Part shown: positions 2,582 through 18,656 of the stretch, in pieces
Numbering within the stretch: the first letter of the stretch is position 1
Layout: every line of letters begins with the position of its first letter
DNA from: Desulfobacterales bacterium RIFOXYA12_FULL_46_15
GTDB lineage: Bacteria; Desulfobacterota; Desulfobacteria; Desulfobacterales; Desulfobacteraceae
DNA length: 34,150 nt
Direction of reading: 5' to 3'
Assembly (NCBI GenBank): GCA_001799395.1
Contig: MGTJ01000171.1
Span: 1 to 34,150 of the forward strand
Translations under genes and position numbers: made by a program
Notes under the pieces: generated by a model
Seen by the model: only the letters and a program-made list of their open reading frames with translations
Database searches by the model: none
What the model was told of the DNA's origin: nothing

Positions 2582-3259
2582 ATGCAGGGAAAAATTAAAC
2601 CAAATCTTCCACAAAAGCAGGTGGTCCTGCCATTTAAGAAATCTGTTGAAATAGCTGTGAAAAGCATAAAATCCAGATTTTTCCGCACCTTGATCACTAC
2701 CATGAGCCTGATTCTGGCCATATCTTTTTATGCCTATATCAAGGTAAATCTTGATATCATCTCAAGTATTACTGTTTCCAATGATAAAGCCGCCATCCAG
2801 AGGCTTTCCCTCCAGGGAATTGAAATTCCCGGGGAAGGCCGGGCCATGGAGCTGTCCCCCCAGGAACGGTGGATACTTTTTTTATCTTTACTGGTTTGTG
2901 TTGTCGGGATTGTTAATACTCAACTGATGGCAGTTGCCGACAGATTCAGAGAAATCGGGACCATGAAATGCCTGGGCGCCCTTGACCGGTTTATCCTGAG
3001 GCTGTTTTTAATTGAAGCCGCACTTCAGGGGCTTATCGGGTCTGCCCTGGGCGGAGCGGCCGGGGCACTTATCGCCTGTCTCGGAGCCCTGGTCAAATAT
3101 GGCAGTTCCATTGCCGGCCTTGTTTCTTTGAATCAAATTTTAACCTCTGTTTTTTCAGCCGTTGTTCTAGGATGCCTGTTAAGTATTATAGGGGTTCTGT
3201 ACCCGGCCCTGCTGGCAGCAAAGATGCAGCCGGTAGAGGCCATGAGGGGAAGGGACTGA
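2582..3259 (+). CDS. Short FtsX/MacB-type ABC transporter permease
   Basis: The 225-residue protein begins with a hydrophobic segment at about residues 36-58 and ends with three more. The FtsX-family signature is clear: RFREIGTMKCLGALDRFI before the second membrane segment, and YPALLAAKMQPVEAMR after the last. FtsX/LolC/MacB permeases normally carry a periplasmic domain of about 200 residues between the first two membrane segments; here only about 50 residues remain, so this is a minimal, probably non-sensing half. It is the first gene of the operon and would pair with the FtsX domain of the 1609-residue protein and the ATPase between them. The start is weakly supported: AGGGA lies only two bases before the ATG, but a stop three codons upstream leaves no better upstream choice. 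Confidence 0.85.
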   Translation: MQGKIKPNLPQKQVVLPFKKSVEIAVKSIKSRFFRTLITTMSLILAISFYAYIKVNLDIISSITVSNDKAAIQRLSLQGIEIPGEGRAMELSPQERWILFLSLLVCVVGIVNTQLMAVADRFREIGTMKCLGALDRFILRLFLIEAALQGLIGSALGGAAGALIACLGALVKYGSSIAGLVSLNQILTSVFSAVVLGCLLSIIGVLYPALLAAKMQPVEAMRGRD

Positions 3260-3263
3260 TGGC

Positions 3264-4010
3264 GTGGAGCCGTTTATGAATCAACCAGCCAGCATTGTTC
3301 GCATATCAGGGGTGATAAAGGATTTTACCATGGGTAAAACCATTGTCCAGGTATTAAAAGGAATTGATCTTGAAATCAAAGCCGGTGAATATGTGTCCAT
3401 CATGGGGCCTTCAGGGTCCGGTAAAACAACCCTGTTCAATATGATCGGCGGACTCGACAAACCATCAGCCGGTTCCGTCTTCATAGATGAGATTGATATC
3501 TCCCAGCTTGATGCCTATGAACTGGCCTGGCTGCGGTGCCGGAAAATAGGATATATTTTCCAGACCTTTAATATTATCCAGGTCATGACCGCCCTGGAAA
3601 ATGTGACCCTGCCCATGGTTTTTGCAGGGATTCCCGATGATGAGGCCAGGGAAAGGGGGATGGAACTTCTGGACATTGTCGGGTTAAAAAAAAGATTTCT
3701 ACATAAGCCTTTTGAGCTTTCCGGCGGGCAACAGCAGCGCGTTGCCATTGCCCGTGCTCTTGCCAATGATCCGGCCATTATCCTGGCCGATGAACCCACA
3801 GGCAATCTGGACCTTGCCACAGGAGAGGAAATCATCACATTGCTGAAAATGTTGAGCCGGGATAAAGAAGTCACCATTATCTCTGCAACCCATGATTTGA
3901 AAATGCTCAATGTTTCAGACAGGGTAATCTGGATCAGTGACGGAAAGATAGAAAAAATCGAAAAAAGAGAAGAACTTTCCATTTCCCTGGGACAGATCGG
4001 TGACAAATGA
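3264..4010 (+). CDS. LolD/MacB-type ABC transporter ATPase
   Basis: This is a complete 248-residue nucleotide-binding subunit: Walker A GPSGSGKTT (residues 48-56), Q-loop Q100, signature LSGGQQQRVAIARAL from residue 152, Walker B IILADE (172-177), the D-loop PTGNLD and H-loop H210. The ADEPTGNLD form and overall length are typical of the LolD/FtsE/MacB class, which drives FtsX-type permeases by mechanotransmission rather than by substrate passage. The GTG start at 3264 is preceded by AAGGGA eight bases upstream; an in-frame ATG at 3276 preceded by GTGGAG is an alternative. The gene starts four bases after the permease stop and overlaps the next gene by four bases (ATGA), so translation of all three is probably coupled. 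Confidence 0.95.
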   Translation: MEPFMNQPASIVRISGVIKDFTMGKTIVQVLKGIDLEIKAGEYVSIMGPSGSGKTTLFNMIGGLDKPSAGSVFIDEIDISQLDAYELAWLRCRKIGYIFQTFNIIQVMTALENVTLPMVFAGIPDDEARERGMELLDIVGLKKRFLHKPFELSGGQQQRVAIARALANDPAIILADEPTGNLDLATGEEIITLLKMLSRDKEVTIISATHDLKMLNVSDRVIWISDGKIEKIEKREELSISLGQIGDK

Positions 4011-7000
4011 GGGGCAAACGAGCTGCTGATAAATGGATTTTATTATTTTTCCTGGGTTTGTTCTTTTTTTCTTATTCCGGGCTGGATGCCGCTCAGGAAG
4101 ACCATAGGCTCCAGCAGCAGCGATTTTCAGAGGTTATCCAAGAATTCTCAGGCAGTTTTGACAGAAGCAGCGGTACAAAAGGGGCTGCCAAGGCAGCGGC
4201 CTATATCAAATCTTTTTTTAAAGACCTGGGATATGAGACCGGGTCCCAGACATTTTCCATGCCTGTCCGGCTGGTGACAAAAACCTGCCTTACACTTGAA
4301 AAAACCGGCCGGTCCATGGATATATCCCCCTTTCTGTCCAATGCGATTTCTCCGGATACCCTGGCCGAACCCGGTATCCAGGTGCCCCTGGTTTATGTAG
4401 GCAAGGGGGAAATGGGAGATTTTAATCATCAAAAGATAAAAGACGCCATTGTTCTGATGGATCTGGATTCCCAGGGAAACTGGATCAATGCCCTGGCCCT
4501 GGGTGCCAAAGCCCTTGTCTATGTTTTTGAACAACCGCCGGATCGATTTTTATTTGAAGACAAGCTGGAATTGTCTCCGGTGAAATTTCCGAAATTTATC
4601 CTTTCTGCAACTGAGGCAGAATTTTTGTTGCCCGGGTATAAAACCTCTGCATTGTCCAATGAAGCTCCTCTTGTAAGGATAAGTTCGGATGTGAAATGGA
4701 CCCCTGCAGCGGTTGAAAATATTTATTGTATGGTGCCGGGCCGGGGTGACACACTCAAGGATGAATTGATTATTGTGGAAGGATTTTATGACACTTCAGG
4801 ATTTGTTTTAAAAAATTCACCCGGTGCGGATCAATCCTGTTCCATTGCCTCTCTTCTGGATCTGGCGACCTTTTTAAAAAACAACCCGCCGGAACGTTCC
4901 GTACTTCTGATCGCCACGGCCGGGCATGGCAACAGCCTTTCAGGCATGCGGGAGATGATCTGGTCCCTGGATACCAAATCCAGCCGCCTCAAAAAGATGC
5001 GGTCAGAGGTTGAAGAGCGAATTGCCGAATCTGAACAAAGCCTTGAATTACTGGACCGGTATAGCCTTAAGGAAAAGATGGACAAAGAGGAGTTGGACCG
5101 GGTTCAGAAAACCGTTCAGGATACCGTCAAAACAGGAATAGACAGTCTGAGCAACCGGTTGATGCGGCTTCGCCTTGAAAAAGATCCTGATGAAACCGGT
5201 ATTAAGCGTCTGGCCGACCAGAGAATGGTCCTGAAACGGTTTGAAAGTCGAAATGACCTTGTCGATCTGACCCGGGAGGAGGCCGATTTGATGATGTCTC
5301 TGATCCAGCCTGCCAGGGAAAAAATCGAAAACACCTGGAAAGATGCAAAGAAACATCAGCAGAACCTTATTTCAGCAAGAAAATTCAAACAAGGGATTCA
5401 GGGAAAAAATATTCTGATGATTTTTTCTTTACATCTTTCAAGCCACGGCACCGGTATCGGAGCCTTTAATGAAGGATGGCTCTATGATATCGATGATTCT
5501 ATCAATACCTTTGCGCCCTATGTGAAGATGAATGAAACCCTTCTCACCAGTGCAAATCAGGTGGCCTGCAAGCTGAATGCAAAAAATCTGTTAAAAGATA
5601 CCTTAAGGCCGTCGCTTCACCGTTCCTGGCGCAGTTATTTCAGGGATAAACCGCCCCTGGGCGGAGAGGTCAGCAATCTGGCCGGATATCCCGGACTCAG
5701 CCTTGTCACCACAGATGATGCCAGGCAATTCTGGAACACACCCGGTGATACCCTGGAAAAAGTCGATATGGTTTATGCTGCCGATCAAAGCCGGTTTATT
5801 TCCAACCTGATTGAAAAATTGGCGTCTGCTTCTGATATCTTATTTCCAAGGCCTGTCCAAAACGGATTTGCAACCCTCACAGGGAGGGCTAATTTTCTGC
5901 GGCATGGGGCCGTGTTCCCGGATGCACCGGCTCCTGGAAGCATTATTCTTTCCTTCCAGGGCCCGGGTATTTTTTATGCCATGGTGGATGATTCCGGAGA
6001 ATTTTCAATCAAGGGGCTTGCCACAAGGAATCTCACCGTGCATAAAGCCATTCTGGAAGGGTATAAATTTGATGAAACAACAGGGGATACCCTGTGGGCC
6101 ATTGATAAAAAACTGACCACCAAGGACAGGTACCGGGTCAGGATGAAAGGCAACCGGACCGAAACCGGCCTGGTGATGTTTCCCTGCACCCAGACCACCC
6201 TTCTGGACCTTCTGGAACCCAGGACCTTCCGTTATATGACCCGGTTGCAGGTATTGGATGCAAGGACTGATGCCGTCCCGGTCCGTCACTGGTACAGCCG
6301 GATCGACACCCGGTCATCCATTATCAGTTCCATCTATCTTCAGCCGGGAACCCCAATGAAACTGGCCCTGTCCGATACACTCCTGACTAAGAAATTTTTA
6401 TTGACCCATTCGGATCAGCGCCATCCTGAAGGGAACGGGTACCCTGTGGACGGGACCCCTCTCATCGCCCCCACCCCGTATCTGGCTTCAAAAGACATGT
6501 GGTCCTTACTGAATCCGAGGATCAATAATCTTGAAGACAAGGGAATCAACAGCCGGAAAATCAAAGACCTCCAGATCCAGGGAAATGAGGCATTGAAAGA
6601 GGCAAAAACCTATTTTGAACAAAAACAGTATGACCGGTTTTTCAGTTCATCCGGTAATGCCCTGGCCCTTGCCGGCAGGGTATACGATCATGTGCTGAAT
6701 ATTCAGAAGGATGTTCTCTACGGGGTCCTGTTCTACATTGTTTTATTCGCTCCCTTTGCCTTTTGCATGGAACGGATGGTCTTTGCCTTTATTAATATCT
6801 ATAAACGAATCGCCGGATTTGTCGGGATACTGGTCCTTCTGATAGCCGTCATTTACAATGTCCATCCTGCATTTGACCTGGCCTACAGCCCCATTGTTAT
6901 TATCCTGGCCTTTTTTATCATCGGCTTATCCGCTGCTGTAACCTGGATTATTTTCAACCATTTTGAAAATGAGATGAAACGGTTTCAGCAGCATGGAAAA

Positions 7001-8836
7001 AGACGTAATGAAGGGGAGATCACCCTGTTAAAAGCGTTTTCCGCTTCTTTTCTCATGGGCGTCAACAATCTCCGGCGCAGACGGGTCAGGACCGTTTTAA
7101 CCTGCACCACCCTGGTTATCCTGACCTTTACCATCATGAGTTTTACCTCTGTCAAAAGTATCCGCCAGCATTCCAGGGTTTTATACAATGATAAGACCCC
7201 TTATCAGGGGCTTCTGGTAAAACAGATCAACTGGCAGACTCTTCCGGGAAGAGCCTTTAAAATCATTGAAAATTCACTGGCGTCCCATATGATTGCCGCC
7301 CCAAGGGCCTGGCTTGAAACCAATGACCGCTCCCAGGCGGAAAGAATCCCTCTCATGGCAGGCAAAGAAATATTTGAAGCCAACGGACTTGTCGGTTTAT
7401 CCCCCAATGAATCTAATATCAGCGGGCTGTCTGCCCATCTCACCCGGGGACGGTGGTTTTCTCCCAATGACCGGTATGCCGTTATCCTTCCGGAAAATAT
7501 GGCCAGGCAACTGAATCTTCCCAATCCGGACGAAAAAGAATCTTTTATCACCCTGTGGTCCATCCCTTTTAAAGTCATTGGTACTTTTTCCGGTAAACAT
7601 TTTGATACTTTCATGGATTTGGATGGCGAACCCCTGACCCCTGCCGTTTTCCCGGATGAAGTATTCCAGAAAACCACGGAAGCGGAAGTGGATGCCATGG
7701 AATCCGGGGATGATATCCGGTCCTTTCAAAGCAGGTATAAACATATCCCCTTTGATCAGATTGCCGTTATTCCCTATGATACCCTGATTTCAATGGGGGG
7801 GAGCCTTAAAAGCATTGCATTGAAATATAAAACAAAGCCCCTGGACAATGCTTCGACCTTTCAAATGGTGGATCGATTTGGATTATGGCTTTTTTCCGGT
7901 GAGAAAAATGGGGTTTATATTTACAGCGCCAGTGACGGACTGAATTACAGCGGACTGCCCAATATTTTTATCCCCATTCTGATTTCCGTTTTTATTGTTT
8001 TGAATACCATGATCGGAAGTGTCCAGGAGCGGAAAAAAGAAATCGGAATTTATACATCCATCGGCATGGCACCCTCCCATGTGTCCATTATTTTTATTGC
8101 CGAAGCCGTATCCTATGCCGTATTGAGTGTGGTCATGGGCTATCTTCTGGCCCAGTTGGTTGTGAAAGTTTTTGCAGGGACTGCGCTGCTGAGCGGGTTG
8201 ACCGTCAATTATTCTTCCCTTGGCGGGGTCTTTGCCATGGCCATGGTCATGCTGGTGGTGGTTTTATCCGCCATTTATCCGTCCCGGATAGCAGCGGCCA
8301 TTGCCATTCCCGATGTGGAAAAATCATGGGAAATGGCCAAAGCAGAAGGCAATACCCTTTCCATTGACCTGCCGTTCCTGATCAAGGAGATTGAAGCCTT
8401 AAGCCTTTGCGGATTTCTTTATCAATTATTTGATTCCCACCGCGCCATATCCCATGGTATTTTCTCAGTGGGCAGACTGGAGGTGACCCCCTTGTCCGAA
8501 TCTCTTCCGGATGGAAAAAAGGGAATAGGGGAAGGGCTCCCGGGTGATTTTCAAATTGATTTTACAGCCTGGCTGGCCCCCTTTGATCTCGGGGTGATGC
8601 AGCAGGTTCATTTCAATATCCTGTCTTCACCGCTGTTTCAAAATTATATGGAAATCAGGCTGGCCATTGTCCGGCAGGCGGGTGAGCACAATACCTGGTG
8701 GCGGGTGAACAAAAGATTTGTTAACCTGATACGCAAACAACTGCTCATCTGGCGGGCCATGACCATGGCTGAAAAAGGCGTCTTTGCCGATCTTATGACA
8801 TCCCGGGCCGGAAAAAAGGATACAGCTATTGTTTAA
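4007..8836 (+). CDS. Fusion of degenerate M28-like peptidase domain with FtsX-type ABC permease
   Basis: This 1609-residue protein has a signal-anchor or signal peptide (residues 1-28), then an M28-aminopeptidase-like periplasmic region to about residue 620. That region is interrupted by a charged, probably coiled-coil stretch (about 325-470). The M28 metal and catalytic positions are mostly changed: the usual HxD is FYD (260-262), the bridging Asp is kept (D275), the catalytic Glu pair is H307-G308, and the last His ligand is N577. A domain resembling a carboxypeptidase regulatory (Ig-like) fold follows at about 620-710, then three membrane segments (about 905-985). A complete FtsX unit comes next: membrane segment at 1027-1049, periplasmic domain to about 1317, and three segments with QERKKEIGIYTSIGM and YPSRIAAAIAI. 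The last 170 residues are soluble and unrecognised. Its role is probably substrate sensing or binding outside the membrane, coupled to the neighbouring ATPase; peptidase activity looks unlikely. Confidence 0.85.
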   Translation: MRGKRAADKWILLFFLGLFFFSYSGLDAAQEDHRLQQQRFSEVIQEFSGSFDRSSGTKGAAKAAAYIKSFFKDLGYETGSQTFSMPVRLVTKTCLTLEKTGRSMDISPFLSNAISPDTLAEPGIQVPLVYVGKGEMGDFNHQKIKDAIVLMDLDSQGNWINALALGAKALVYVFEQPPDRFLFEDKLELSPVKFPKFILSATEAEFLLPGYKTSALSNEAPLVRISSDVKWTPAAVENIYCMVPGRGDTLKDELIIVEGFYDTSGFVLKNSPGADQSCSIASLLDLATFLKNNPPERSVLLIATAGHGNSLSGMREMIWSLDTKSSRLKKMRSEVEERIAESEQSLELLDRYSLKEKMDKEELDRVQKTVQDTVKTGIDSLSNRLMRLRLEKDPDETGIKRLADQRMVLKRFESRNDLVDLTREEADLMMSLIQPAREKIENTWKDAKKHQQNLISARKFKQGIQGKNILMIFSLHLSSHGTGIGAFNEGWLYDIDDSINTFAPYVKMNETLLTSANQVACKLNAKNLLKDTLRPSLHRSWRSYFRDKPPLGGEVSNLAGYPGLSLVTTDDARQFWNTPGDTLEKVDMVYAADQSRFISNLIEKLASASDILFPRPVQNGFATLTGRANFLRHGAVFPDAPAPGSIILSFQGPGIFYAMVDDSGEFSIKGLATRNLTVHKAILEGYKFDETTGDTLWAIDKKLTTKDRYRVRMKGNRTETGLVMFPCTQTTLLDLLEPRTFRYMTRLQVLDARTDAVPVRHWYSRIDTRSSIISSIYLQPGTPMKLALSDTLLTKKFLLTHSDQRHPEGNGYPVDGTPLIAPTPYLASKDMWSLLNPRINNLEDKGINSRKIKDLQIQGNEALKEAKTYFEQKQYDRFFSSSGNALALAGRVYDHVLNIQKDVLYGVLFYIVLFAPFAFCMERMVFAFINIYKRIAGFVGILVLLIAVIYNVHPAFDLAYSPIVIILAFFIIGLSAAVTWIIFNHFENEMKRFQQHGKRRNEGEITLLKAFSASFLMGVNNLRRRRVRTVLTCTTLVILTFTIMSFTSVKSIRQHSRVLYNDKTPYQGLLVKQINWQTLPGRAFKIIENSLASHMIAAPRAWLETNDRSQAERIPLMAGKEIFEANGLVGLSPNESNISGLSAHLTRGRWFSPNDRYAVILPENMARQLNLPNPDEKESFITLWSIPFKVIGTFSGKHFDTFMDLDGEPLTPAVFPDEVFQKTTEAEVDAMESGDDIRSFQSRYKHIPFDQIAVIPYDTLISMGGSLKSIALKYKTKPLDNASTFQMVDRFGLWLFSGEKNGVYIYSASDGLNYSGLPNIFIPILISVFIVLNTMIGSVQERKKEIGIYTSIGMAPSHVSIIFIAEAVSYAVLSVVMGYLLAQLVVKVFAGTALLSGLTVNYSSLGGVFAMAMVMLVVVLSAIYPSRIAAAIAIPDVEKSWEMAKAEGNTLSIDLPFLIKEIEALSLCGFLYQLFDSHRAISHGIFSVGRLEVTPLSESLPDGKKGIGEGLPGDFQIDFTAWLAPFDLGVMQQVHFNILSSPLFQNYMEIRLAIVRQAGEHNTWWRVNKRFVNLIRKQLLIWRAMTMAEKGVFADLMTSRAGKKDTAIV

Positions 8837-10823
8837 AGAAAGAAAAGAAGGAGAAACCATCAGGCCCAGAGCATTCATTCTTGGATGTGTTCTGGCTGTT
8901 CTCATCTGTGCGCTCACCCCTTTCAATAATGTATACAGGAATGCAACCCCCCTGGGAGGCGGTTATTTTCCCCTTGCCCCGTTTTATATATTGATCTGGC
9001 TGACCCTCATCACTGTCCTTTCCGGAAAATGGTTAAAAACAGGATACCTTTTGACAGGATTGGAACTGGTCTTTACCTGGGGACTCATGGTGCTGGTTTC
9101 AGGGATTGCCTATACCGGTTTTGCCAGAACCTTTTTTATCAATCTCACGGCCCCTTTTTATTTTTCAAGTGTTGAGAACCGATGGCAGGAGATTATCCAG
9201 CCGCTCTTGCCGGATAATTTATTCCCCCGGGGCAATGAAGCTGTTGAATTGATTTACAATGGGCTTGAGGGGGGCCGGGACATGGGGTGGATGGCACTGG
9301 CAGGCAATATCCCATGGGATGCCTGGGTCCTGCCGTTTTTTTCCTGGGGTGTTTTCATGGTCATCTGCTATTTTTTGATTCTTTGTATGATCCATATCAT
9401 CTCGCATCAGGCCATGCAAAACGAACGTATGAATTTTCCCCTTCTGATCGTGCCCAAAATGATACAGACCGCTCTGGAAGAAAAAAATCCGGGTTTGTTT
9501 TTCTGCAACCGGTTCCTTCTGGCAGGGGTCGCCATCCCTGTCTGCCTGCATTTATTGAACGGCCTGAATTTTTATTTCCCTTCCGTTCCCCAGATCAATA
9601 CTCTGGTGCTGGCCGGGTCCTATTTTCCCCAGCAGGGAATTTTCAACGGATTTATAAAACTGAAACTTTATTTTTACCCTGCATTTATCGGATTTGCCTT
9701 TCTGGCTTCCAAACAGGTGTCTTTTTCATTCTGGTTTTTTTATATCCTGGGTGCATTTTTCACAGGGATCTTATCGGTTGCCGGATGGAGTTTCCCTGCC
9801 TCGGAACTGGGAACCACCTTTGGCCCTACGCTGTCAAGCCCTGAAGAGACCCAGATGATCGGTGCTTTCATCGTCTTTGCGTTTTTTCTCGTCTGGCTGG
9901 CCCGGTTCCATTTTTGGGGGATCATCCGGAATGCTTTCACTTTTGCTCAAAAAAACGCTGAACCCGGCCAGGTTACGGATAAAATAGCTTTCTGGGGGAC
10001 AGGAATGGGATTTTTTTCCCTTGTGCTCTGGTTTTCTTTTCATGGGGTGACCATAGGGCAGAGCATTTTGATTATTGTTTTTTTTCTGTTGTTCACCATG
10101 GTAGCCACCCGGGTCGTATGCCAGGGCGGGATCACCTATTTTACCTTGACGGTTGCCCCCTTTGACGCCATCAATACCCTTTTCGGGTTAAAAATACTCT
10201 CCAATCCGGCCTTGCTCATCGGCAGCATCAGCCAGAAAATCCTGTTCCTGGATTTACGGGAATCGGTGGCTCCTTCCATTCTTCATGTGCTCAGAATCAC
10301 GAGAAGGGCAAAATCAAAGGGCCGGATTGCCGGCGCCGTTTTTTTAATGATGGTGGTCTGCCTTATGGTTTCTGCTGTTGCCATGGTCCTTCTCTGCTAT
10401 AAATACGGTATACGGGACCTTCAAATGGACTGGGCCACCCGGACCACGGTATCGGTTTATAACAATATCCTGCCGGTATTTCAGAATCATATGGAACAAG
10501 GGGCTTCCATTAAGTATTTTGCCATAGCAGGAGCCTTTGTCATGGGGCTTCTTTCGATTTTATACCACCGGTTTTACTGGTGGCCCCTCCATCCCATCGG
10601 GTATTTGATGGTGTACAGCTCGGCTATGAAGATTTTATGGTTGAGTTTTTTCATTGGATGGATGTTTAATGCATTGTGCATGAGATATGGCGGGATCGGT
10701 CTTTTTACAAAAATGCGAAATTTTTTCGTGGGACTGATCATGGGAGATTTTTTAATGGGCGGAACCTGGGCCATTATCGGCTTGTTTGCGGAAACAGGCA
10801 GTTACCAGGTCCTTCCCCTGTAA
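8829..10823 (+). CDS. Large polytopic membrane protein, DUF6785/DUF6784-like
   Basis: This 664-residue protein is almost entirely hydrophobic, with a dozen or more likely membrane segments. Recognisable family features are the ENRWQEIIQPLLPDNLF segment after the first helices, the ERMNFPLLIVPK segment near residue 200, RVVCQGGITYF in the middle, and the C-terminal HPIGYLM...LRYGG/FFVGLIMGDFLMGG-type block. I associate these with DUF6785 followed by DUF6784, a family of unknown function distantly like oligopeptide (OPT) transporters. This assignment is from memory of the motifs, not a search. Translation starts at a TTG that overlaps the end of the preceding gene by eight bases and has AAAAGGA at the proper eight-base distance. 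A transport or channel role in the same envelope process as the ABC/M28 proteins is inferred from the coupling. Confidence 0.75.
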   Translation: MFKERKEGETIRPRAFILGCVLAVLICALTPFNNVYRNATPLGGGYFPLAPFYILIWLTLITVLSGKWLKTGYLLTGLELVFTWGLMVLVSGIAYTGFARTFFINLTAPFYFSSVENRWQEIIQPLLPDNLFPRGNEAVELIYNGLEGGRDMGWMALAGNIPWDAWVLPFFSWGVFMVICYFLILCMIHIISHQAMQNERMNFPLLIVPKMIQTALEEKNPGLFFCNRFLLAGVAIPVCLHLLNGLNFYFPSVPQINTLVLAGSYFPQQGIFNGFIKLKLYFYPAFIGFAFLASKQVSFSFWFFYILGAFFTGILSVAGWSFPASELGTTFGPTLSSPEETQMIGAFIVFAFFLVWLARFHFWGIIRNAFTFAQKNAEPGQVTDKIAFWGTGMGFFSLVLWFSFHGVTIGQSILIIVFFLLFTMVATRVVCQGGITYFTLTVAPFDAINTLFGLKILSNPALLIGSISQKILFLDLRESVAPSILHVLRITRRAKSKGRIAGAVFLMMVVCLMVSAVAMVLLCYKYGIRDLQMDWATRTTVSVYNNILPVFQNHMEQGASIKYFAIAGAFVMGLLSILYHRFYWWPLHPIGYLMVYSSAMKILWLSFFIGWMFNALCMRYGGIGLFTKMRNFFVGLIMGDFLMGGTWAIIGLFAETGSYQVLPL

Positions 10824-10851
10824 TTCACTATATTGCCAGGGTCCAGCGTAT

Positions 10852-12810
10852 ATGTATGATGATAAAGAACTGAACGAATACCGGGATCTTCTAAAGCCCC
10901 CGGATCAATTCCAAGACGGGTTTAACTGGAAAACCATTGTAGGTGCCGTTTTTATCGGTTTTCTCATGATGCCCGGCAGCATGTACCTTCAACTGGTTAT
11001 CGGTACGGGGATCGGACCTGCAGCCAGGTGGGTCACCATCATCCTTTTTGCTGAAATCGCCAAGCGTGCTTATGCTGATTTAAAACAACAGGAAATATTC
11101 CTACTTTATTATATGGCCGGTGCTGCCATGTCATCTCCTTTTCAGGGATTATTGTGGAATCAGTATCTGGTTCAATCCGATGCCGCAAAAATGCTGGGAC
11201 TGACCGAATTTATCCCCTCCTGGGTGGCCCCACAGCCTGAATCCGCTTCTCTTCTTGAGAGGACCTTCCTACATCCGGATTGGCTGATTCCCATCCTGCT
11301 CCTGGTCGGGTCCCAGATCATCCAGAGAATCGATCAGTTCGGCCTGGGTTATGCCCTGTACAGAATCACTTCCGATGTTGAAAAATTGCCCTTTCCCATG
11401 GCGCCGGTGGGTGCCCTCGGAACCATTGCCCTGGCAGAATCCAGGGAAGAAAAGGCCAGGTCCTGGAAATGGCGGATTTTTTCCATCGGCGGGGTCATCG
11501 GCCTGGTTTTTGGAAGTGTATATATCCTTCTGCCTGCTGTATCCGGACTTATTTTTATGGAGCCGGTTCGTTTGATTCCCATCCCCTGGGTGGAGCTGAC
11601 ACGGCATACGGAAGGGATATTACCGGCTGTAGCCACAGGTATCCAGTTTGATCTGGGCCTTGTTTTCCTGGGCATGGTCCTTCCTTTCTGGGCTGTGATC
11701 GGAGGCCTTGTGGGGCTTCTGATCACCATGGCTCTCAACCCCATCTTATATCATAACGGGATTCTGAGAAGCTGGCATCCGGGGATGGGGACCGTTGAAA
11801 CCGTGTTTGCAAATAATTTTGATTTTTATATGAGTTTTGGTATCGGTCTCGGGCTTTCCATCGGAATCATAGGGCTTTGGCAGGTGTCCAAATCTTTCCG
11901 GGGACCTCAGAACATCCGGAATAACCTGAAACTGCTGTTTAATCCGCCGCCGGGAAGAGGGGATTTTGATTTCAGAATTGCCATTGCTATTTATTTGTTT
12001 TCCACCCTTTCCTATGTGATTCTTTGCACCATTTTAGTTCCCACATTCCCCTGGATTTTCTTTTTGATCTATGGCTTTATTTATACTCCGGTCATTTCCT
12101 ATATCACCGCGCGGATGGAAGGGATTGCCGGGCAGTTTATCAGCCTGCCCATGGTCAGGGAGGCCAGTTTCATTGCGGGCGCAAAATATTTCGGGTATCA
12201 GGGCATTGAAATATGGTATGCCCCGATTCCGTTTCACAATTATGGTGAAGCAACGGTGAATTTCAGGCAGATCGAACTCACCGGAACCAGCTTGAGAGGG
12301 ATCATCAAGGCTGAGTTTATTGTTTTTCCTGTGGTCATGATCGCCAGCCTGCTGTTTTCCCAGTTTATCTGGCGCCTGGCGCCCATTCCTTCAGTCAACT
12401 ACCCCTATGCCCAGGAATTATGGCATCTGCAGGCATTGAATACGCTTTTAATGCAGTCTTCCACCCTTGAGGGAAATTCCCTGTTTTACCAGGCCATCAA
12501 TTCAGTCACTGTATTTTCCGGCATGGGATTCGGCCTTTTGACCTATGCCATTCTTAGTTTTTTCGGATTGCCGGTGCTCCTGGTATACGGCATTGTAAGA
12601 GGCCTTGGCCAGAGCACCCCCCATGGCCTTATCCTGGAAGTAATCGGTGCCTTCCTGGGCAGGTTTTTTTTCCTGGAGCGATATGGAAAACAATGGCGGC
12701 AGTATGCCCCGGTACTTCTGGCCGGTTTTTCCTGCGGCATGGGGTTGATGGGAATGTTTGCCATGGGCTTTACGCTGATATTAAAATCACTCAGCAGCAG
12801 CAGTTTCTAA
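10852..12810 (+). CDS. Large polytopic membrane protein, OPT-transporter-like
   Basis: The 652-residue integral membrane protein has a short charged N-terminus (MYDDKELNEYRDLLKPPDQF) and many hydrophobic segments. The segments GIGPAARWVTIILFAEIAKR, DQFGLGYALYRITSDVEKLPFPMAPVGA and the LGLSIGIIGLWQVSKSFRG block are reminiscent of oligopeptide-transporter (OPT) superfamily proteins, including the PFP element after a conserved polar helix. The frame is open from 10786, but the ATG at 10852 is the likelier start because the residues before it are not hydrophobic or conserved-looking and it avoids overlap with the previous gene. It lies 28 bases after the DUF6785-like gene. Similar size and topology suggest the two proteins may act as a pair. 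Substrate unknown. Confidence 0.7.
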   Translation: MYDDKELNEYRDLLKPPDQFQDGFNWKTIVGAVFIGFLMMPGSMYLQLVIGTGIGPAARWVTIILFAEIAKRAYADLKQQEIFLLYYMAGAAMSSPFQGLLWNQYLVQSDAAKMLGLTEFIPSWVAPQPESASLLERTFLHPDWLIPILLLVGSQIIQRIDQFGLGYALYRITSDVEKLPFPMAPVGALGTIALAESREEKARSWKWRIFSIGGVIGLVFGSVYILLPAVSGLIFMEPVRLIPIPWVELTRHTEGILPAVATGIQFDLGLVFLGMVLPFWAVIGGLVGLLITMALNPILYHNGILRSWHPGMGTVETVFANNFDFYMSFGIGLGLSIGIIGLWQVSKSFRGPQNIRNNLKLLFNPPPGRGDFDFRIAIAIYLFSTLSYVILCTILVPTFPWIFFLIYGFIYTPVISYITARMEGIAGQFISLPMVREASFIAGAKYFGYQGIEIWYAPIPFHNYGEATVNFRQIELTGTSLRGIIKAEFIVFPVVMIASLLFSQFIWRLAPIPSVNYPYAQELWHLQALNTLLMQSSTLEGNSLFYQAINSVTVFSGMGFGLLTYAILSFFGLPVLLVYGIVRGLGQSTPHGLILEVIGAFLGRFFFLERYGKQWRQYAPVLLAGFSCGMGLMGMFAMGFTLILKSLSSSSF

Positions 12811-12886: not shown

Positions 12887-13495
12887 ATGAAAAAAAATAT
12901 GCTGATTTTGTGTTTTTTCATGGTGTTGTTTCCATATCATTTTGCCCATGCAAAATTCCCGATTCATCTGGGCGGCTTTGTGTTGGGTGATGATATCTCA
13001 AATTACGAGAGCATGGTCGATCTGAAGACCTTCCATGAAGTACCTTTCAATCAATACCTGGAAGAAGGACAGATTATTGTGCAACCCGGATTCAAATCAG
13101 GTTTGATTGCTTATGGAATGTGCAACAGCCCTAAAAAAGTACTCAGAATAAAATTAAAATTCAGCGATTCTTCAAAAAAGTTTTTTGAAAGGCTTTTACA
13201 AAAATACAGGGAACAACTGGGTGAGCCCGATGAATATAAGGGTGATCCGTTTCAAACCATGATTGCCTGGAAATGGTCTTTTGTAAATGATCAAAAGGAA
13301 AGGATCAGCCTCATCCTTCAACACAATATCATGGTAGATGATGAAAAAATGGGAAATTCCGTAAAACTTACACTGACCAGCCGGATTGATGAAGAAAGGG
13401 AGTGTTACCTGAAAAAATTTCCGGAAAAAGAATCACAGCCGTTCCAGTTAAAAAAACCTGATAAAGAACTCTGGAAATTATTTGTTCCCTATTAA
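12887..13495 (+). CDS. Exported protein of unknown function
   Basis: The 202-residue protein has a clean signal peptide: MKK start, hydrophobic core, and an AHA site near residue 22. The mature part opens with a segment containing a GGFVLGDDI turn and is mostly beta/charged, with no cysteine pairs arranged for metal binding and no motif I recognise. The ATG is preceded by AAAGAGG at a suitable distance. It starts 76 bases after the membrane-protein operon and is followed after 15 bases by the next gene, so it may belong either to the tail of that operon or to a separate three-gene unit ending in the PqqD-like gene. Confidence 0.75.
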   Translation: MKKNMLILCFFMVLFPYHFAHAKFPIHLGGFVLGDDISNYESMVDLKTFHEVPFNQYLEEGQIIVQPGFKSGLIAYGMCNSPKKVLRIKLKFSDSSKKFFERLLQKYREQLGEPDEYKGDPFQTMIAWKWSFVNDQKERISLILQHNIMVDDEKMGNSVKLTLTSRIDEERECYLKKFPEKESQPFQLKKPDKELWKLFVPY

Positions 13496-13510: not shown

Positions 13511-14401
13511 ATGTTACCCGACCACGGATGTGTTAAGAAACAGCTTGCCTGGAACAGGATTGCTTTTAAGATTCCGGAAGCCTGGGAAATAGAAAGTCTT
13601 GATTATACACACCTGATTGTCAGTGAGGATGGAAATCCTAAAATTGAAATCAAATGGACAGAGTCTCCCAAGTCATTTACGCTTGAAAAACATTTAAAAA
13701 AAATTATTTCCAGATCTCAAAAACTGCTCAATATCAAGATCCGCAAGCAATCCACGCCCGATTTTTTTTTACATTCACTCCCCGGGTTTGATTTTTTTTT
13801 CTTTTCCTGGGAGAGTCCCTCTTCAAAAGGGGCCGGCACCCTTATCTTTTGCAGTCATTGCCGGAGGGTCACGCTGATTCGCTTTTTTTCCAATTTGGAT
13901 CTTACGCCAAACTCAATTCCTCATCTGGTCTTGACATCCTTTACCGATCACCCCTTAACCGGACATGTGCCCTGGCATCTGTTCGGTATGGAATTTTCAA
14001 CACCAATGCAGTTTACACTTTCAGACTACAGTTTTAAACCAGGATATTTTTTTGTCAAATTGTTATACCATAAAATCCATTTAACCGTTTTGAGCTGGGG
14101 CCCTGCTTCTTTTCTGCTCTCAGGGAAAACATTGCCTGAATTTGCCAAAGACTGGGTTCCCGGGTTGAAAGGATTTGCAACGGCAGAGACCTCAGACCGC
14201 GGCAGCTATCTTGAATGGTCTTACCGGCAAGGGCCTTTTAAAAATGCCGGTTCACTGCCGTTTTTTTCCAGGTATATGCGGTTCACGCTTTTCAGACTTT
14301 TGCAGGATACACAAAATAACAGGATATACGGGGTAAAGATTGACTCTCCTGAAACATTTGAAATCGAGTTGATGAAAGGAACCATCATCAATGGGAGTTA
14401 A
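13511..14401 (+). CDS. Two-domain protein of unknown function beside a PqqD-like gene
   Basis: The 296-residue protein has no signal peptide and no membrane helix. It appears to hold two related halves. The first (from about residue 13) begins WNRIAFKIPEAWEIESLDYTHL and continues to a KIEIKWTE strand followed by a helical KHLKKII segment. The second (from about residue 157) begins WHLFGMEFSTPMQFTLSDYSF and continues to HLTVLSWGPAS followed by LPEFAKDW. This pattern suggests internal duplication of a small beta-rich fold. I do not recognise a function. The gene overlaps the PqqD-like gene by 11 bases, so the two products are probably made in proportion and may bind each other. Confidence 0.7.
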   Translation: MLPDHGCVKKQLAWNRIAFKIPEAWEIESLDYTHLIVSEDGNPKIEIKWTESPKSFTLEKHLKKIISRSQKLLNIKIRKQSTPDFFLHSLPGFDFFFFSWESPSSKGAGTLIFCSHCRRVTLIRFFSNLDLTPNSIPHLVLTSFTDHPLTGHVPWHLFGMEFSTPMQFTLSDYSFKPGYFFVKLLYHKIHLTVLSWGPASFLLSGKTLPEFAKDWVPGLKGFATAETSDRGSYLEWSYRQGPFKNAGSLPFFSRYMRFTLFRLLQDTQNNRIYGVKIDSPETFEIELMKGTIINGS

Positions 14402-14768
14402 GGGGAAAACAGCATGGACTAAAAAAGAGGCCCTTTTGTGCATACCTGAAAGAAATACAGGATCTGAAGAGATTTTTAAGGATAACGGAGATCTGGTCCT
14501 CTCCTTTCCGGTAGTATACAAACCTTTTTTCATGCGGCTTTGGCGCATCGTTGGGGCAACCCCCAGAGAAACATTCAACCGTAAAATACAGCTTGATCGT
14601 TTGGGAGCCGATGTCTGGTCCCTGATAGATGGTAAAAGAGATGTGAAAACAATTATTAAATCATTTGCATCACTTCACGGATTGGATAACAGGGAAGCTG
14701 AAATTTCAGTAACGCTTTTTCTAAGGTCATTGGGTGAAAAAGGATTGATCAGCATAAATGATCCTTGA
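14391..14768 (+). CDS. PqqD-like protein (RiPP recognition element fold)
   Basis: In this 125-residue protein the C-terminal 60 residues match the PqqD pattern: a hydrophobic-Asp strand (IQLDRLGADVWSLIDGKRDV), the helix IIKSFASLHGL and a final DNREAEISVTLFLRSLGEKGLI helix. In PQQ and many RiPP pathways this winged-helix domain holds the leader peptide for a radical SAM enzyme. The first 60 residues are an extension of unknown role. The start ATG lies inside the previous gene, with AAAGGA about ten bases upstream. No precursor peptide or maturase lies directly beside it; the closest radical SAM gene is 12 kb away on the other strand. Many stand-alone PqqD proteins have no known role, so peptide binding is an inference. 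Confidence 0.75.
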   Translation: MGVKGKTAWTKKEALLCIPERNTGSEEIFKDNGDLVLSFPVVYKPFFMRLWRIVGATPRETFNRKIQLDRLGADVWSLIDGKRDVKTIIKSFASLHGLDNREAEISVTLFLRSLGEKGLISINDP

Positions 14769-14783
14769 AAATTTAAATTTTCA
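14766..14783. repeat. 18-bp perfect palindrome across two convergent stop codons
   Basis: TGAAAATTTAAATTTTCA is its own reverse complement. It includes the TGA of the PqqD-like gene and the TAA of the STAS gene, which are only four bases apart. There is no loop and no GC core, so it is not a standard terminator. It may simply reflect AT-rich convergent gene ends. Confidence 0.6.
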
Positions 14784-15105
14784 GCATGGCTTCATCAAGA
14801 TTTTTCTCTATTGGTAGATATCCATCAAACCCGGATATATCAAAAACCTCTCTCACATAGTCCTGAAGGCTGCAAAGGACGATGTTTCCATTCTGCCGTT
14901 TAAGGTCTTTTGTTGTTTTGAGCATTACTCTGATCCCGGCACTGGATATATAATCCAGGTTTTCAAGATTAAAAATTATCTTTTTCCGGCCATTTCCCAG
15001 GGCTGTATATATCCGGGTTTCAAATTCAGGTGATGTATTGGAGTCAAGGCTTCCTTTAACATTGAATATCTCAACCCCATTAACATTTTCTTGAAAAATT
15101 TCCAT
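14773..15105 (-). CDS. STAS-domain anti-anti-sigma factor
   Basis: This 110-residue protein is a single STAS domain, as in SpoIIAA/RsbV. The phosphorylation loop reads LDYISSAGIRVML, placing the likely phosphoserine at S55 (S54 precedes it). In partner switching the unphosphorylated form binds the HATPase kinase and frees that kinase's partner. An AAGGGA lies eight bases before the ATG. It is the last gene of the minus-strand unit, 50 bases after the kinase-like gene, exactly the partner expected. No sigma factor or PP2C phosphatase gene is present in this window. Confidence 0.92.
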   Translation of the reverse strand: MEIFQENVNGVEIFNVKGSLDSNTSPEFETRIYTALGNGRKKIIFNLENLDYISSAGIRVMLKTTKDLKRQNGNIVLCSLQDYVREVFDISGFDGYLPIEKNLDEAMLKI

Positions 15106-15155: not shown

Positions 15156-15578
15156 TTACCCGCGATATTTTTTTTTCATGATAATGATGTTTTTATTTTT
15201 TTTACGATAATACCGGCATTCATCTATAAAATGCTTTACAAAATGTATCCCCAGTCCACCAATACCTCTTTTTTCAATGGCACACCGGATATCGGGTGGT
15301 GGTAATGCATTGATATCAAACGGCTCACCGTCATCCTCCATTCGAATAACCATATCGGTATCATCACAGGACAAAGAAATATCAATATCATGTTCTTTGT
15401 TATCCGAAAAACCATGGTTTACCATATTTGTAAATAATTCTTCAAGGATCAGATCTATTTCTTTAAGCTTTCGCTGGGTGCAGTCTATGGATTCTGACAT
15501 TTTTAAAACAATTGCTTTAAGTTTTTTTAGATCTGACAGCCGGTTTTTTAATGTAATGGATAGCTTCATTTTTCCCAT
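15156..15578 (-). CDS. RsbW/SpoIIAB-like serine kinase / anti-sigma HATPase
   Basis: This 140-residue GHKL-ATPase domain has an N-box EELFTNMVNHG (residues 46-56), a G1 box EDDGEPFD (81-88) and a G2 box GIGGLGIHFV (105-114). The absence of a dimerisation/phosphoacceptor His domain separates it from two-component kinases and places it with the RsbW/SpoIIAB class, which phosphorylate STAS proteins on serine. Its likely substrate is the adjacent STAS protein. Its output partner is not obvious; without a sigma gene nearby it may control another target, such as the cyclic-nucleotide-fold protein or exporter encoded in the same unit. The start is uncertain: ATG at 15578 has no clear ribosome binding site, and an in-frame ATG three codons later follows GGGA. 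Confidence 0.92.
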   Translation of the reverse strand: MGKMKLSITLKNRLSDLKKLKAIVLKMSESIDCTQRKLKEIDLILEELFTNMVNHGFSDNKEHDIDISLSCDDTDMVIRMEDDGEPFDINALPPPDIRCAIEKRGIGGLGIHFVKHFIDECRYYRKKNKNIIIMKKKYRG

Positions 15579-15625: not shown

Positions 15626-16156
15626 TTATATCAAGCTGATGCCCAGAAGATTCTTGATGCCCTCTTTTTCTTCAGATTCAAATTCAATGATACATTTTCT
15701 CTCGGCATTTGCAAGCTTTTGCAAGATAGGGCGCGTGATTTTTAAAATTGTATCGGGAAATTGATCGGCAATTTTTGTAAAAGCTTTCCGGGTCATGACA
15801 ATACATGTGGTGTCGGCCGTGGCAACCAGTGAAAACTGTTTCACCATGGGTGCCAAAAGAGAGAGCACACCTAAATAGCTTTCGGCTTTGTATTCACGAA
15901 TCACATATTCTTTATTATTTTTTTTAAGGACAAGGGATGCCGCCCCTGACAAAATATAATAAGCGCATTGATCATCATCATCTTGAAAGAAAATATAGTC
16001 TCCGGTTTTATAGGACTGCCTCTTACAAAGAAAGGCAAAGAGCTTGATAACATCCATGGAAAGACCGGAAAAAAATTCTATTTGTCTGAAAATATTAAGA
16101 TTTAATGAAAATTCACTCCTGTTTTCCGAATCACTTGTGTTCATAAGCGAGTTCAT
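15626..16156 (-). CDS. Cyclic-nucleotide-binding-fold (Crp/CAP_ED) regulator without DNA-binding domain
   Basis: This 176-residue protein contains one cNMP-binding beta barrel (about residues 23-145): FFSGLSMDVIKLF, YKTGDYIFFQDDDDQCAYYILSGAASLVL and the closing strand/helix TTCIVMTRKAFTKIADQFP. The phosphate-binding cassette is atypical: where cAMP binders have GE and later R-S/T-A, this protein has G96-V97 and Q107-F108-S109, so canonical cNMP binding is doubtful. No helix-turn-helix follows the barrel, so it is not a Crp-type transcription factor. The gene overlaps the end of the ABC exporter gene by 26 bases (alternative start 16144 reduces this to 14), which ties it to the exporter, perhaps as a regulatory subunit. 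Confidence 0.88.
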   Translation of the reverse strand: MNSLMNTSDSENRSEFSLNLNIFRQIEFFSGLSMDVIKLFAFLCKRQSYKTGDYIFFQDDDDQCAYYILSGAASLVLKKNNKEYVIREYKAESYLGVLSLLAPMVKQFSLVATADTTCIVMTRKAFTKIADQFPDTILKITRPILQKLANAERKCIIEFESEEKEGIKNLLGISLI

Positions 16157-18656
16157 AAAAATACCCCTTTTTTGCCATCAGTTCATCGTAGGTTCCCATT
16201 TCCACTATTTTACCGGCTTTTAAAAAAACGATTTTGTCATAGTCCTTTACGATATCAAGCCTGTGTACCACTGCAATCAATGTGCTCTTCCCTTTCCATT
16301 GACGGGACAGTACGTTTTGAATTCTTTTTTGAGAATTATTGTCAAGGGCTGACGTTGCCTCATCAAGGATCATTATCCGGGGTGATTTTAAAAAGGTCCT
16401 GGCAATGGCCAGTTTCTGCCGCTGGCCACCTGAAAGTTTATTCCCTTTTGTGCCGACATTGAAATTCATCCCTATTTCAATCATTTCCTCAAGAAAGCCT
16501 TCACTGATCAAGAGGGCAATAAGGTATTGATTGATTTTTTCCTGGTCTGCAGGATTGGCTGTTTTAACGATTCCAAACAGGATATTATTAAATATGGTTT
16601 GGGAATGAATATACTGGTCGTTTTTGAAAAAAGCTACGGCATGATCATGGTATTGCCTGATTTTTTCTTTAAACATAAATCTGCCTTCCAGGATCAGATT
16701 TACCATAAAGTCAGGAATAAGCGCGATTCGATGTTTTCCTGGTGAAAACCGTAACGCAAGTTCCAGTAATGCCAGGGTCTGCTTTTTTTCAAGTTGATGC
16801 AGGTTTTGATTTTTAATGGTCCTTACGACCTCTTCATATTTGTCAAATTCTTCTGTTTTTATGGGGCTTTGTTCGAAAAACAGTTTGTCTGGTGCTACAT
16901 TTTTAAGAATATCCACAGTCTGATAAGCAATTTCTTTGCCTAAAGTCAAAAGCGGCCGTTTCAGGTCTGCGTCATCGAGAAAATTAAGAAAAAACTGATT
17001 TTCCATTAGATTTTCATTTTTAAACTCATCTATTGCAGGAGCACCGAAAATAATGTTTTCTGTGATGTCGGCATAGGAAAGAAACTGATTTTCATCGAAA
17101 AATTCAACCCATTCGGCAATGGCTTCACCATATTGTTTCTGAAATGCCTGTCTCATTTTTATAATAACAGGGATAACCTCCTTTTCATTTTCACTAATAA
17201 CGGTATTTAATCCGAATCGTAACACATCTACAAACAAGCCGGATTGCTGCAGCACCTGTACAAGGTTATCCAGTTCAAGGGCGCAGTCTCCTTCAAGTGT
17301 ACACGTTTCACCATGAAGTGCCATATAGGAGTACATGAGATTCTCCTTAATGGTGCCCTCAAATATAAAGGGTGATTGTGATACCAATCCCATGTTCTGT
17401 GTAATGTCGGCCTTTGTAAGTTCGGAAATTTCCTTGGTTCCGATGGTGGCATGGCCTGATGTGTATTTGTAAAGCTGGGCAATGGAAAGGGCCAGCGAAC
17501 TTTTACCGCTTCCTGAGAATCCTACCAGGGCGACTTGTTCACCAGGGCCTATGTCCAGGTTGATATCATCCAGGAGCTTTACGCCTTCCGCGGTTTCCAG
17601 ATTCATACGGTTGATATTTATTGAACCCTCTAATTCATAGGGCTTTCGGTCATCGGATGTCAGGACGTTGTTTATCTGAACATCAAAATAGCTCATTGTT
17701 TTTTTATAATTGACTGATCCGTCCTGATAGACCTGGTAGAACTCGATCAGTTCTTTCCAGGGGTCATACAGTTTTTCCTGTGCTGACAAAAAGGCCACCA
17801 GGGCTCCCAGTCCCAATTGTCCTTTAATGGACAGATACCCGCCAATAATGAAGATGAGAAAGGGTCCCAGGTTAACAAAAAAATTGCTGGTTACCTTTAT
17901 GGCATATTTATTGGTGTTCCATTTGACTCTGATTTTCATCAAGTGGTCAACAATTCCGTCAAATTTGTTTTTTTCTATATCAAATGCACCATTGGCCTGG
18001 ACCTCATGGATACCGGCAACAGACTCGACAATTTTCGAGGATAATATCCGGGAGGAATTCATTCTTTTTCTATTATCCCGGTTCACCCGTTTTTGAATCA
18101 GCGGGATGACATATAGCATGATAGGATATAATGAAAAAGAAACGATCCCCAGCATGGGATTCAGGATAATGAGATATCCGGCAAAGGCCAGGAGGGTTAC
18201 AATGTTGATCAATGGCACGGCTATGGCCATTCCTATAAAATTACCAGGGACTGTCAGTTCATTGATAATGGAGTTTACAACCGTGCCGGGCGGGGTATTT
18301 CTAAAAAAATCCAAAGGGATTTTCAGAATATGATAGTACAATTGTTTCCGCATCTCAGCAGTAACTTTTTCACTGATTCGGGTTTGAATGATATTAATCA
18401 TCCATTTGAGCAATGAAGCCGATACAACGGCCAGAAGGTAGATCCCGCAATACTTTACCAGAAGTTCCGGTTTTCTTAGATTGATGGCTTCATTGATGAT
18501 TCTTTGCTGCAATTCAAGGGGAACCACCCGGATGGCGACCGTAATCAGAATAATGATCACCAGCAGGATCTGAAGCTTTACATTCCCATCCAATACCCAG
18601 GACGAAAGGGTTCTGTTCACGACAGGGATTTGTTTCCCCCGGGTTTTTATTTCCAA
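16131..18656 (-). CDS. ABC exporter half-transporter with long insertion in its ATPase domain
   Basis: This 841-residue protein has an N-terminal exporter-type membrane domain (about residues 25-300, TM287/288-MsbA-like) and an ATPase with Walker A GFSGSGKSS (379-387), Q427, signature LSGGQ (741-745), Walker B IMILDE (761-766) and H798. The Q-loop to signature distance is 314 residues, against roughly 80 in ordinary exporters. Three X-loop-like motifs occur in this span: TIKENL (435-440), ITENIIFG (531-538) and TIFNNILFG (687-695), suggesting extra copies of the helical subdomain were inserted. All catalytic residues remain, so the protein is probably active, likely as a homodimer. A TTG start at 18656 is supported by CGGAG about ten bases upstream. 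Substrate unknown; flanking genes are a methyltransferase and regulators. Confidence 0.9.
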   Translation of the reverse strand: MEIKTRGKQIPVVNRTLSSWVLDGNVKLQILLVIIILITVAIRVVPLELQQRIINEAINLRKPELLVKYCGIYLLAVVSASLLKWMINIIQTRISEKVTAEMRKQLYYHILKIPLDFFRNTPPGTVVNSIINELTVPGNFIGMAIAVPLINIVTLLAFAGYLIILNPMLGIVSFSLYPIMLYVIPLIQKRVNRDNRKRMNSSRILSSKIVESVAGIHEVQANGAFDIEKNKFDGIVDHLMKIRVKWNTNKYAIKVTSNFFVNLGPFLIFIIGGYLSIKGQLGLGALVAFLSAQEKLYDPWKELIEFYQVYQDGSVNYKKTMSYFDVQINNVLTSDDRKPYELEGSININRMNLETAEGVKLLDDINLDIGPGEQVALVGFSGSGKSSLALSIAQLYKYTSGHATIGTKEISELTKADITQNMGLVSQSPFIFEGTIKENLMYSYMALHGETCTLEGDCALELDNLVQVLQQSGLFVDVLRFGLNTVISENEKEVIPVIIKMRQAFQKQYGEAIAEWVEFFDENQFLSYADITENIIFGAPAIDEFKNENLMENQFFLNFLDDADLKRPLLTLGKEIAYQTVDILKNVAPDKLFFEQSPIKTEEFDKYEEVVRTIKNQNLHQLEKKQTLALLELALRFSPGKHRIALIPDFMVNLILEGRFMFKEKIRQYHDHAVAFFKNDQYIHSQTIFNNILFGIVKTANPADQEKINQYLIALLISEGFLEEMIEIGMNFNVGTKGNKLSGGQRQKLAIARTFLKSPRIMILDEATSALDNNSQKRIQNVLSRQWKGKSTLIAVVHRLDIVKDYDKIVFLKAGKIVEMGTYDELMAKKGYFYELAYEHK

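Follow-up and report, generated by a model that had tools for sequence, protein, structure and literature searches.

Type VII ATP-binding cassette (ABC) machines work on the periplasmic side of the membrane and have their function set by a partner protein, according to the parts of PMC12646458 drawn on here, where YbbAP-TesA is also put forward as a machine that would pull hydrophobic molecules out of the membrane. This system, together with LolCDE, MacAB-TolC and FtsEX-EnvC, resembles in its LolD/MacB-class ATPase and FtsX permeases part of a five-gene operon (genes B to F) that we analyzed in Desulfobacterales bacterium RIFOXYA12_FULL_46_15 (assembly GCA_001799395.1, contig MGTJ01000171.1, positions 1 to 34,150; this whole stretch of 34,150 nucleotides is called the window below). 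The operon departs from type VII systems in its very unequal permeases and in the addition of an inactive M28 domain, two membrane proteins (E and F) resembling the oligopeptide transporter (OPT) family, and glycan genes. The latter recall Pel, xap and Wzx/Wzy-type loci, with which the gene set has in common glycosyltransferases of families 4 (GT4) and 28 (GT28, MurG-like), a deacetylase-like protein and an ABC exporter. For Desulfobacterota, the sections of PMC10553843 consulted describe pel-like, xap-like and capsular polysaccharide pathways, and a word search of the main text among them returned no FtsX, M28, oligopeptide or glycosyltransferase. We propose that B to F probably form the inner-membrane core of a larger gene set (about 16 genes) for a glycan-containing envelope product, in which B, C and D would serve as the ATP-driven motor. 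The genes of the core and of its downstream continuation are as follows.

2582-3259, + strand: B, short FtsX-type permease (Pfam FtsX, 2e-16), with a loop of about 42 residues in place of the periplasmic domain
3264-4010, + strand: C, LolD/MacB-class ATPase (TIGR02211, 223 bits, under the LolD equivalog cut-off of 307.75)
4007-8836, + strand: D, 1609-residue protein with an M28 domain, an FtsX permease and a C-terminal domain (Pfam, hydropathy and alignment)
4124-5866, + strand: degenerate M28 region within D (residues 40-620), in an alignment that includes three canonical M28 proteins from relatives
8829-10823, + strand: E, DUF6785 and DUF6784 membrane protein (PF20581, 3.2e-148), distant OPT relative (AlphaFold2, Foldseek, hhalign)
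10852-12810, + strand: F, 652-residue membrane protein, extremely conserved, probable distant OPT relative, without a Pfam family
12887-13495, + strand: G, protein whose N-terminus is hydrophobic and signal-like, without a convincing Pfam or PDB match
13511-14401, + strand: H, fast-evolving protein in which C114 and C117 are conserved to at least 90%, without a convincing Pfam or PDB match
14391-14768, + strand: I, PqqD-like protein (PF05402, 3.3e-08, 34.2 bits against a cut-off of 23.4)

The five open reading frames B to F are separated by 4, -4, -8 and 28 bases, as reported by a first-pass annotation made from the letters of the window, and judged by this arrangement the operon is real. For F, the open reading frame list gives a start at 10786, and the start of homologues corresponds to the ATG at 10852. 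The run extends past F into G, H and the PqqD-like I with gaps of 76, 15 and -11, so that the five-gene unit of the annotation stands as a membrane core and falls short as a description of the whole. Between positions 2200 and 15200 we counted 24 promoter-like sites against 19.7 (standard deviation 4.6) in shuffled sequence, and 31 terminator-like sites against 18.5 (standard deviation 4.1); as the latter are scattered through the open reading frames on both strands, they were not counted against a single transcript.

Relatives of F were collected by scanning named genomes with conserved F peptides and confirming the hits with tblastn. The best 80 of the 225 found, labelled Desulfobacterota or more broadly (Deltaproteobacteria, Proteobacteria, Syntrophobacterales), were analyzed as named loci; these are mutually related and overlap with the genomes of our other counts, and they include two from cultured strains, Desulfospira joergensenii DSM 10085 and Desulfogranum marinum DSM 2058 (L083 and L134). 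B, C, D and E lie upstream of F on the same strand in 53 of the 57 named loci to which this count was limited, those with 8.3 kb or more of sequence before F (49/57 with a limit of 9 kb instead, B lying just past 9 kb in four loci). The exceptions are L094 and L129, which lack B, L137, which has E only, and L123, which has none of the four, so E and F are not usually found apart from the ABC and M28 genes, an outcome that the annotation had named as one that would refute its reading. Where 1.9 kb or more of upstream sequence is present, E adjoins F in 76 of 77 named loci; where 8 kb or more is present downstream, F is followed by two or more of G, H and I in 39 of 45. I sits directly 3' of H in 48/80, and many of the remaining loci are truncated. 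At L076, E and F occur without B to D nearby, D ending about 12 kb before E on the same contig; the neighbours there resemble, by sequence inspection, the glutamate synthase small subunit and heterodisulfide reductase.

Presence and absence were counted across 297 Desulfobacterota genomes. E scored above its cut-off in 20 of these (a 21st match, in genome G058, is below it), F was found in 20, and D reached at least 600 bits in 20; some match to D occurs in 196 genomes, the best beyond the 20 scoring 46 bits over the FtsX part. The three sets of 20 are identical and span 12 families, which upholds the suggested link between the ABC machine and the OPT-like pair. Within the genus of the window, E is present in 11 of 26 genomes, its own included, with the copy in G016 partial at a contig edge; it is absent from all 14 control genomes, and a plasmid search gave no match to it. 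Since the same 20 genomes carry the genes even where these are unlinked, the set has apparently been lost or gained as a whole, and its distribution points to what is apparently block inheritance across sulfate-reducing bacteria. That the genes form one functional unit appears almost certain.

Domain matches agree with the annotation in assigning B, C and D to a LolD/MacB-class ATPase with two unequal FtsX permeases, an FtsX domain being recognized by Pfam on D (3.5e-12) as well as on B. C matches TIGR02211 (2.5e-66) and MacB (1.2e-64) while missing both the LolD and MacB equivalog cut-offs, and the scores for a LolCDE equivalog were likewise missed, with 50.9 bits for B where 362.45 are needed and 223.3 for C where 307.75 are needed. 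According to hydropathy, on which the transmembrane (TM) layouts of both permeases are based, the loop between the first and second TM helices, where type VII permeases have a periplasmic domain, measures about 270 residues in D and about 42 in B, leaving B nearly without such a domain. D would begin with a signal or anchor, followed by about 875 residues presumed to lie outside the membrane, three extra TM helices, the FtsX unit with four TM helices, and the C-terminal domain.

The M28 domain of D scores 26.7 bits with the Peptidase_M28 model, for which the cut-off is 21.3. Of the D sequences of the window and 56 named homologues no shorter than 1500 residues, compared with the three canonical M28 proteins, none keeps the zinc-binding His, the catalytic Glu or the last His, and the second Glu (Asp in two) and the Glu of the third motif (His in 56) are likewise replaced in 57/57. 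All 57 retain the TPxD turn and the first-motif Asp, and in 55 the bridging Asp is aligned, across a one-column gap. A catalytic M28 peptidase was therefore rejected for D, and the degenerate domain presumably has a binding role. Its nearest known counterparts are M28 peptidases and their inactive relatives nicastrin and the transferrin receptor. The annotation had this domain capture a peptide or lipoprotein; capture fits the degenerate domain, which could still bind, whereas the loss of the active site and the glycan-related partners speak against either of these as the probable substrate.

The annotation called E and F OPT-like, and this holds for E and is only probable for F. An AlphaFold2 model of E (mean predicted local distance difference test (pLDDT) 74.4, predicted template modelling score 0.80) had barley YS1 (7wsr and 7wst) at ranks 1 and 2 in Foldseek, with probability 1.00 and TM-scores of 0.49-0.57 while rank 3 had probability 0.15, although no match reached an E value of 0.001 (best 2.9e-3) and the root-mean-square deviation was 11. 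Alignments of the window with 61 of 75 homologues of E, and with 63 of 79 full-length named homologues of F (most of the others having an extended or unclear start), were compared by local hhalign with a profile of seven OPT proteins, giving 87% for E and 56% for F. Reversed controls gave at most 0.2%; the highest values from 12 block shuffles of each alignment were 11.6% for E and 3.2% for F, and two other membrane families stayed at or below 2.7% against OPT. End to end, E scored 89% near full length and F 0.1%, so it is the local match alone that supports F. A direct Pfam scan of E at an E value of 0.01 did not list PF03169 among its matches, and none of 27 F sequences matched any Pfam family, OPT included; one F sequence, from genome G129, reaches 18.7 bits against the OPT cut-off of 25.8. 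A sequence search of the PDB yielded no convincing relative of E, F, G or H. Taking model and profile together, E is a distant OPT relative, and profile comparison makes F probably another. Homology of E and F to each other was also considered and rejected (hhalign 0.3% and 0.5%), their common trait being the OPT resemblance only. They differ from the OPT/YSL family (PF03169) in being two distinct proteins that occur as a pair, in their association with an ABC machine and in lacking a direct Pfam match to OPT.

F evolves more slowly than the housekeeping enzymes GlyA and Tgt of the same cells: in the 19 other carrier genomes F is 69-82% identical to that of the window, as against 47-63% for GlyA and 51-63% for Tgt. 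In 37 loci with intact B to I, median identity to the window is 81% for F, followed by C (74), E (54), B (51), D (46), G (40), I (39) and H (23). Recent spread was rejected as the cause, because fourfold-degenerate sites of F are as saturated (38% identity) as those of B, C, D, E and G (27-40%); F is thus kept by selection on the protein. Across its 64 aligned sequences, 67 charged or polar residues are conserved in at least 97%.

Further evidence comes from genes for glycan synthesis and export, some of which flank the core in the window together with regulatory neighbours.

2-1255, - strand: MurG-like GT28 C-terminal glycosyltransferase (Pfam Glyco_tran_28_C, 1.1e-15), truncated where the contig ends; the divergent glycan operon starts here
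1363-2361, - strand: radical S-adenosylmethionine (SAM)/SPASM protein, between the two divergent operons, outside the conserved set
14773-15105, - strand: STAS anti-sigma-antagonist-like protein, neighbouring regulation
15156-15578, - strand: RsbW-like HATPase_c_2 protein, neighbouring regulation
15626-16156, - strand: protein with a cyclic nucleotide (cNMP)-binding domain (domain match), neighbour of the exporter
16131-18656, - strand: MsbA-like ABC exporter whose ATPase domain carries about 260 inserted residues (profile matches)

We compared the 20 carriers with 40 of the 277 genomes without the system, which we picked among those listed; 59 of these 60 genomes combine a completeness of 90% or more with no more than 5% contamination, only carrier G083 being outside these limits, and Fisher tests on these counts ignore kinship and serve as a guide only. 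A second GT28 of at least 183 bits is present in 20/20 carriers and 0/40 non-carriers (eight of the latter have weak matches, the best at 79.8 bits), the MsbA-like exporter in 20/20 and 0/40 (cut-off E value 1e-60, with 16 candidates scored per genome), the DUF2334 deacetylase-like protein in 18/20 and 0/40, and G in 17/20 and 0/40. Neighbour clustering showed the order GT28-GT4-GT4-His phosphatase-GT28-DUF2334 beside B in several relatives, for example L159 with L022. This glycan operon is divergent from B in the genus of the window and located elsewhere in other genomes; in the genome of the window itself, GT4, His phosphatase, GT28 and DUF2334 genes lie on contig G000:C14. Extended upstream stretches (8.6-19.9 kb) hold at least one glycan gene in 15 of 20 cases and at least three in 11, and a GT28 or DUF2334 gene was seen upstream of B in 24 of 41 named loci, where usually only 1-2 kb is covered. 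In 15 named loci a homologue of the exporter separates F from G/H, in nine of them on the same strand; the exporter's best NCBIfam match is MsbA and its second-best the NHLM bacteriocin exporter model. The lost M28 active site and the co-inherited glycosyltransferases, deacetylase-like protein and MsbA-like exporter lead us to a glycan-containing substrate, and that the product contains glycan is likely.

Several further genes were noted near these loci. In relatives a MASE10-HAMP-SpoIIE gene (L079:17850-19316) lies near the STAS and RsbW genes, forming a partner-switching module beside the exporter, and a GSCFA-family gene adjoins the glycan operon in several relatives (L160:1320-2279). In four loci of one family (L170, L171, L188 and L192), two additional genes, which on sequence inspection encode a Cys-rich and a methyltransferase-like protein, stand beside the second GT28.

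The product, the direction of movement and the contacts between the proteins are what we infer in the following scheme. Cytoplasmic glycosyltransferases (two GT28 and two GT4) would make a short, probably lipid-linked glycan, which, or the precursors of which, the His phosphatase and the DUF2334/NodB-type protein may modify, and the MsbA-like exporter would transfer the glycan to the outer leaflet. ATPase C and a heterodimer of small B and large D would form a type VII machine that converts ATP hydrolysis into movement outside the membrane; by analogy with the known machines, such periplasmic mechanotransmission is somewhat more probable than not. The degenerate M28 domain of D could act as a receptor that binds the molecule or its carrier without cleaving it, and E and F would be the membrane partner, most likely a path or enzyme that hands on the glycoconjugate. 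We only tentatively place the pair on the export side, as a translocase or enzyme and not an importer, at slightly under even chances. More speculative, and rather unlikely, is the bolder idea of a new class of export machine, in which a type VII motor with an inactive M28 receptor drives an OPT-like heterodimer acting as an exporter of, or enzyme for, a lipid-linked glycan or glycopeptide; if true, this would be to our knowledge the first role of an OPT fold in export and the first ATP-driven OPT pair.

A number of observations weigh against this scheme. D is unlinked from E and F in genomes G348, G307 and G162, and F from D and E in G129, all the genes being present, so that a single physical complex is not proven (in G267, where D, E and F are all present, contig ends leave linkage undecided). 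Five of the 20 extended upstream stretches contain no labelled glycan gene, the DUF2334 gene is absent from carriers G267 and G330, and G was not detected in carriers G083, G129 and G162. The AlphaFold2 model of F, built from 64 sequences, is poor (pLDDT 38.9), and the characterized eukaryotic OPT transporters are known to act as importers. Unlike in known exopolysaccharide and glycolipid loci, no standard export hallmark (initiating transferase, Wzx/Wzy, Wzm/Wzt, synthase or outer-membrane exporter) was found among the labelled recurrent neighbour families, the genomes themselves not having been searched, and the pathway is therefore incomplete as drawn. As a separate observation, G330 and G267, which belong to one genus, each have three matches to G.

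Import is the role that the OPT fold of E would itself suggest, and the presence of M28 and PqqD-like domains, both from families that handle peptides, would suit an uptake system in which E and F import an oligopeptide, glycopeptide or metal chelate that the M28 domain receives and whose uptake the ABC machine gates. The co-inherited partners are, however, biosynthetic glycosyltransferases and an exporter, and type VII machines typically pass no substrate across the membrane, as stated in the parts of PMC12646458 consulted; we regard uptake as improbable. Marginally less probable again is the secretion of a modified peptide: I with H and G would handle its precursor, which would be glycosylated and for which the MsbA-like protein would provide export and the membrane machine maturation. 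The position of I directly after H, the radical SAM/SPASM gene beside the locus and the NHLM model as second-best match of the exporter are consistent with such a pathway, but close homologues of the radical SAM gene adjoin the locus only within the genus, save for one weak match at L067, MsbA is the better match of the exporter, and no precursor peptide was identified, small open reading frames not having been searched systematically.

A purely regulatory role, in which the ABC machine controls an envelope enzyme in the manner of FtsEX while E and F act as enzyme or anchor and transport nothing, would account for the FtsX permeases, for the STAS, RsbW and SpoIIE-type switch genes nearby and for the enzyme-like array of conserved charged and polar residues in F; set against the OPT relatives, which are transporters, and the co-inheritance of an ABC exporter, it has a lower probability than either of the preceding two. 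Finally, an orphan transporter operon might merely lie beside a glycan cluster, as the genomes with unlinked glycan genes and the upstream stretches lacking them would allow, yet co-occurrence persists where the genes are unlinked, the second GT28 separating all carriers from all non-carriers, and such chance proximity is very improbable. The inner-membrane core of a glycan pathway is the reading that we prefer to these four.

The gene set is apparently undescribed. The annotation knew of no system combining these parts, and we likewise found no description of the set among the best-ranked titles and abstracts of the open-access literature, in which we also found no paper naming DUF6785 or DUF6784. 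F, G and H are without a Pfam family; the other parts fall in known superfamilies. DUF6785 and DUF6784 thereby gain a set of genomic partners, and a protein family absent from Pfam, that of F, is brought to light. If the proposed model is true, these bacteria would have a further route for the export of envelope glycans and the OPT fold would have a new use.

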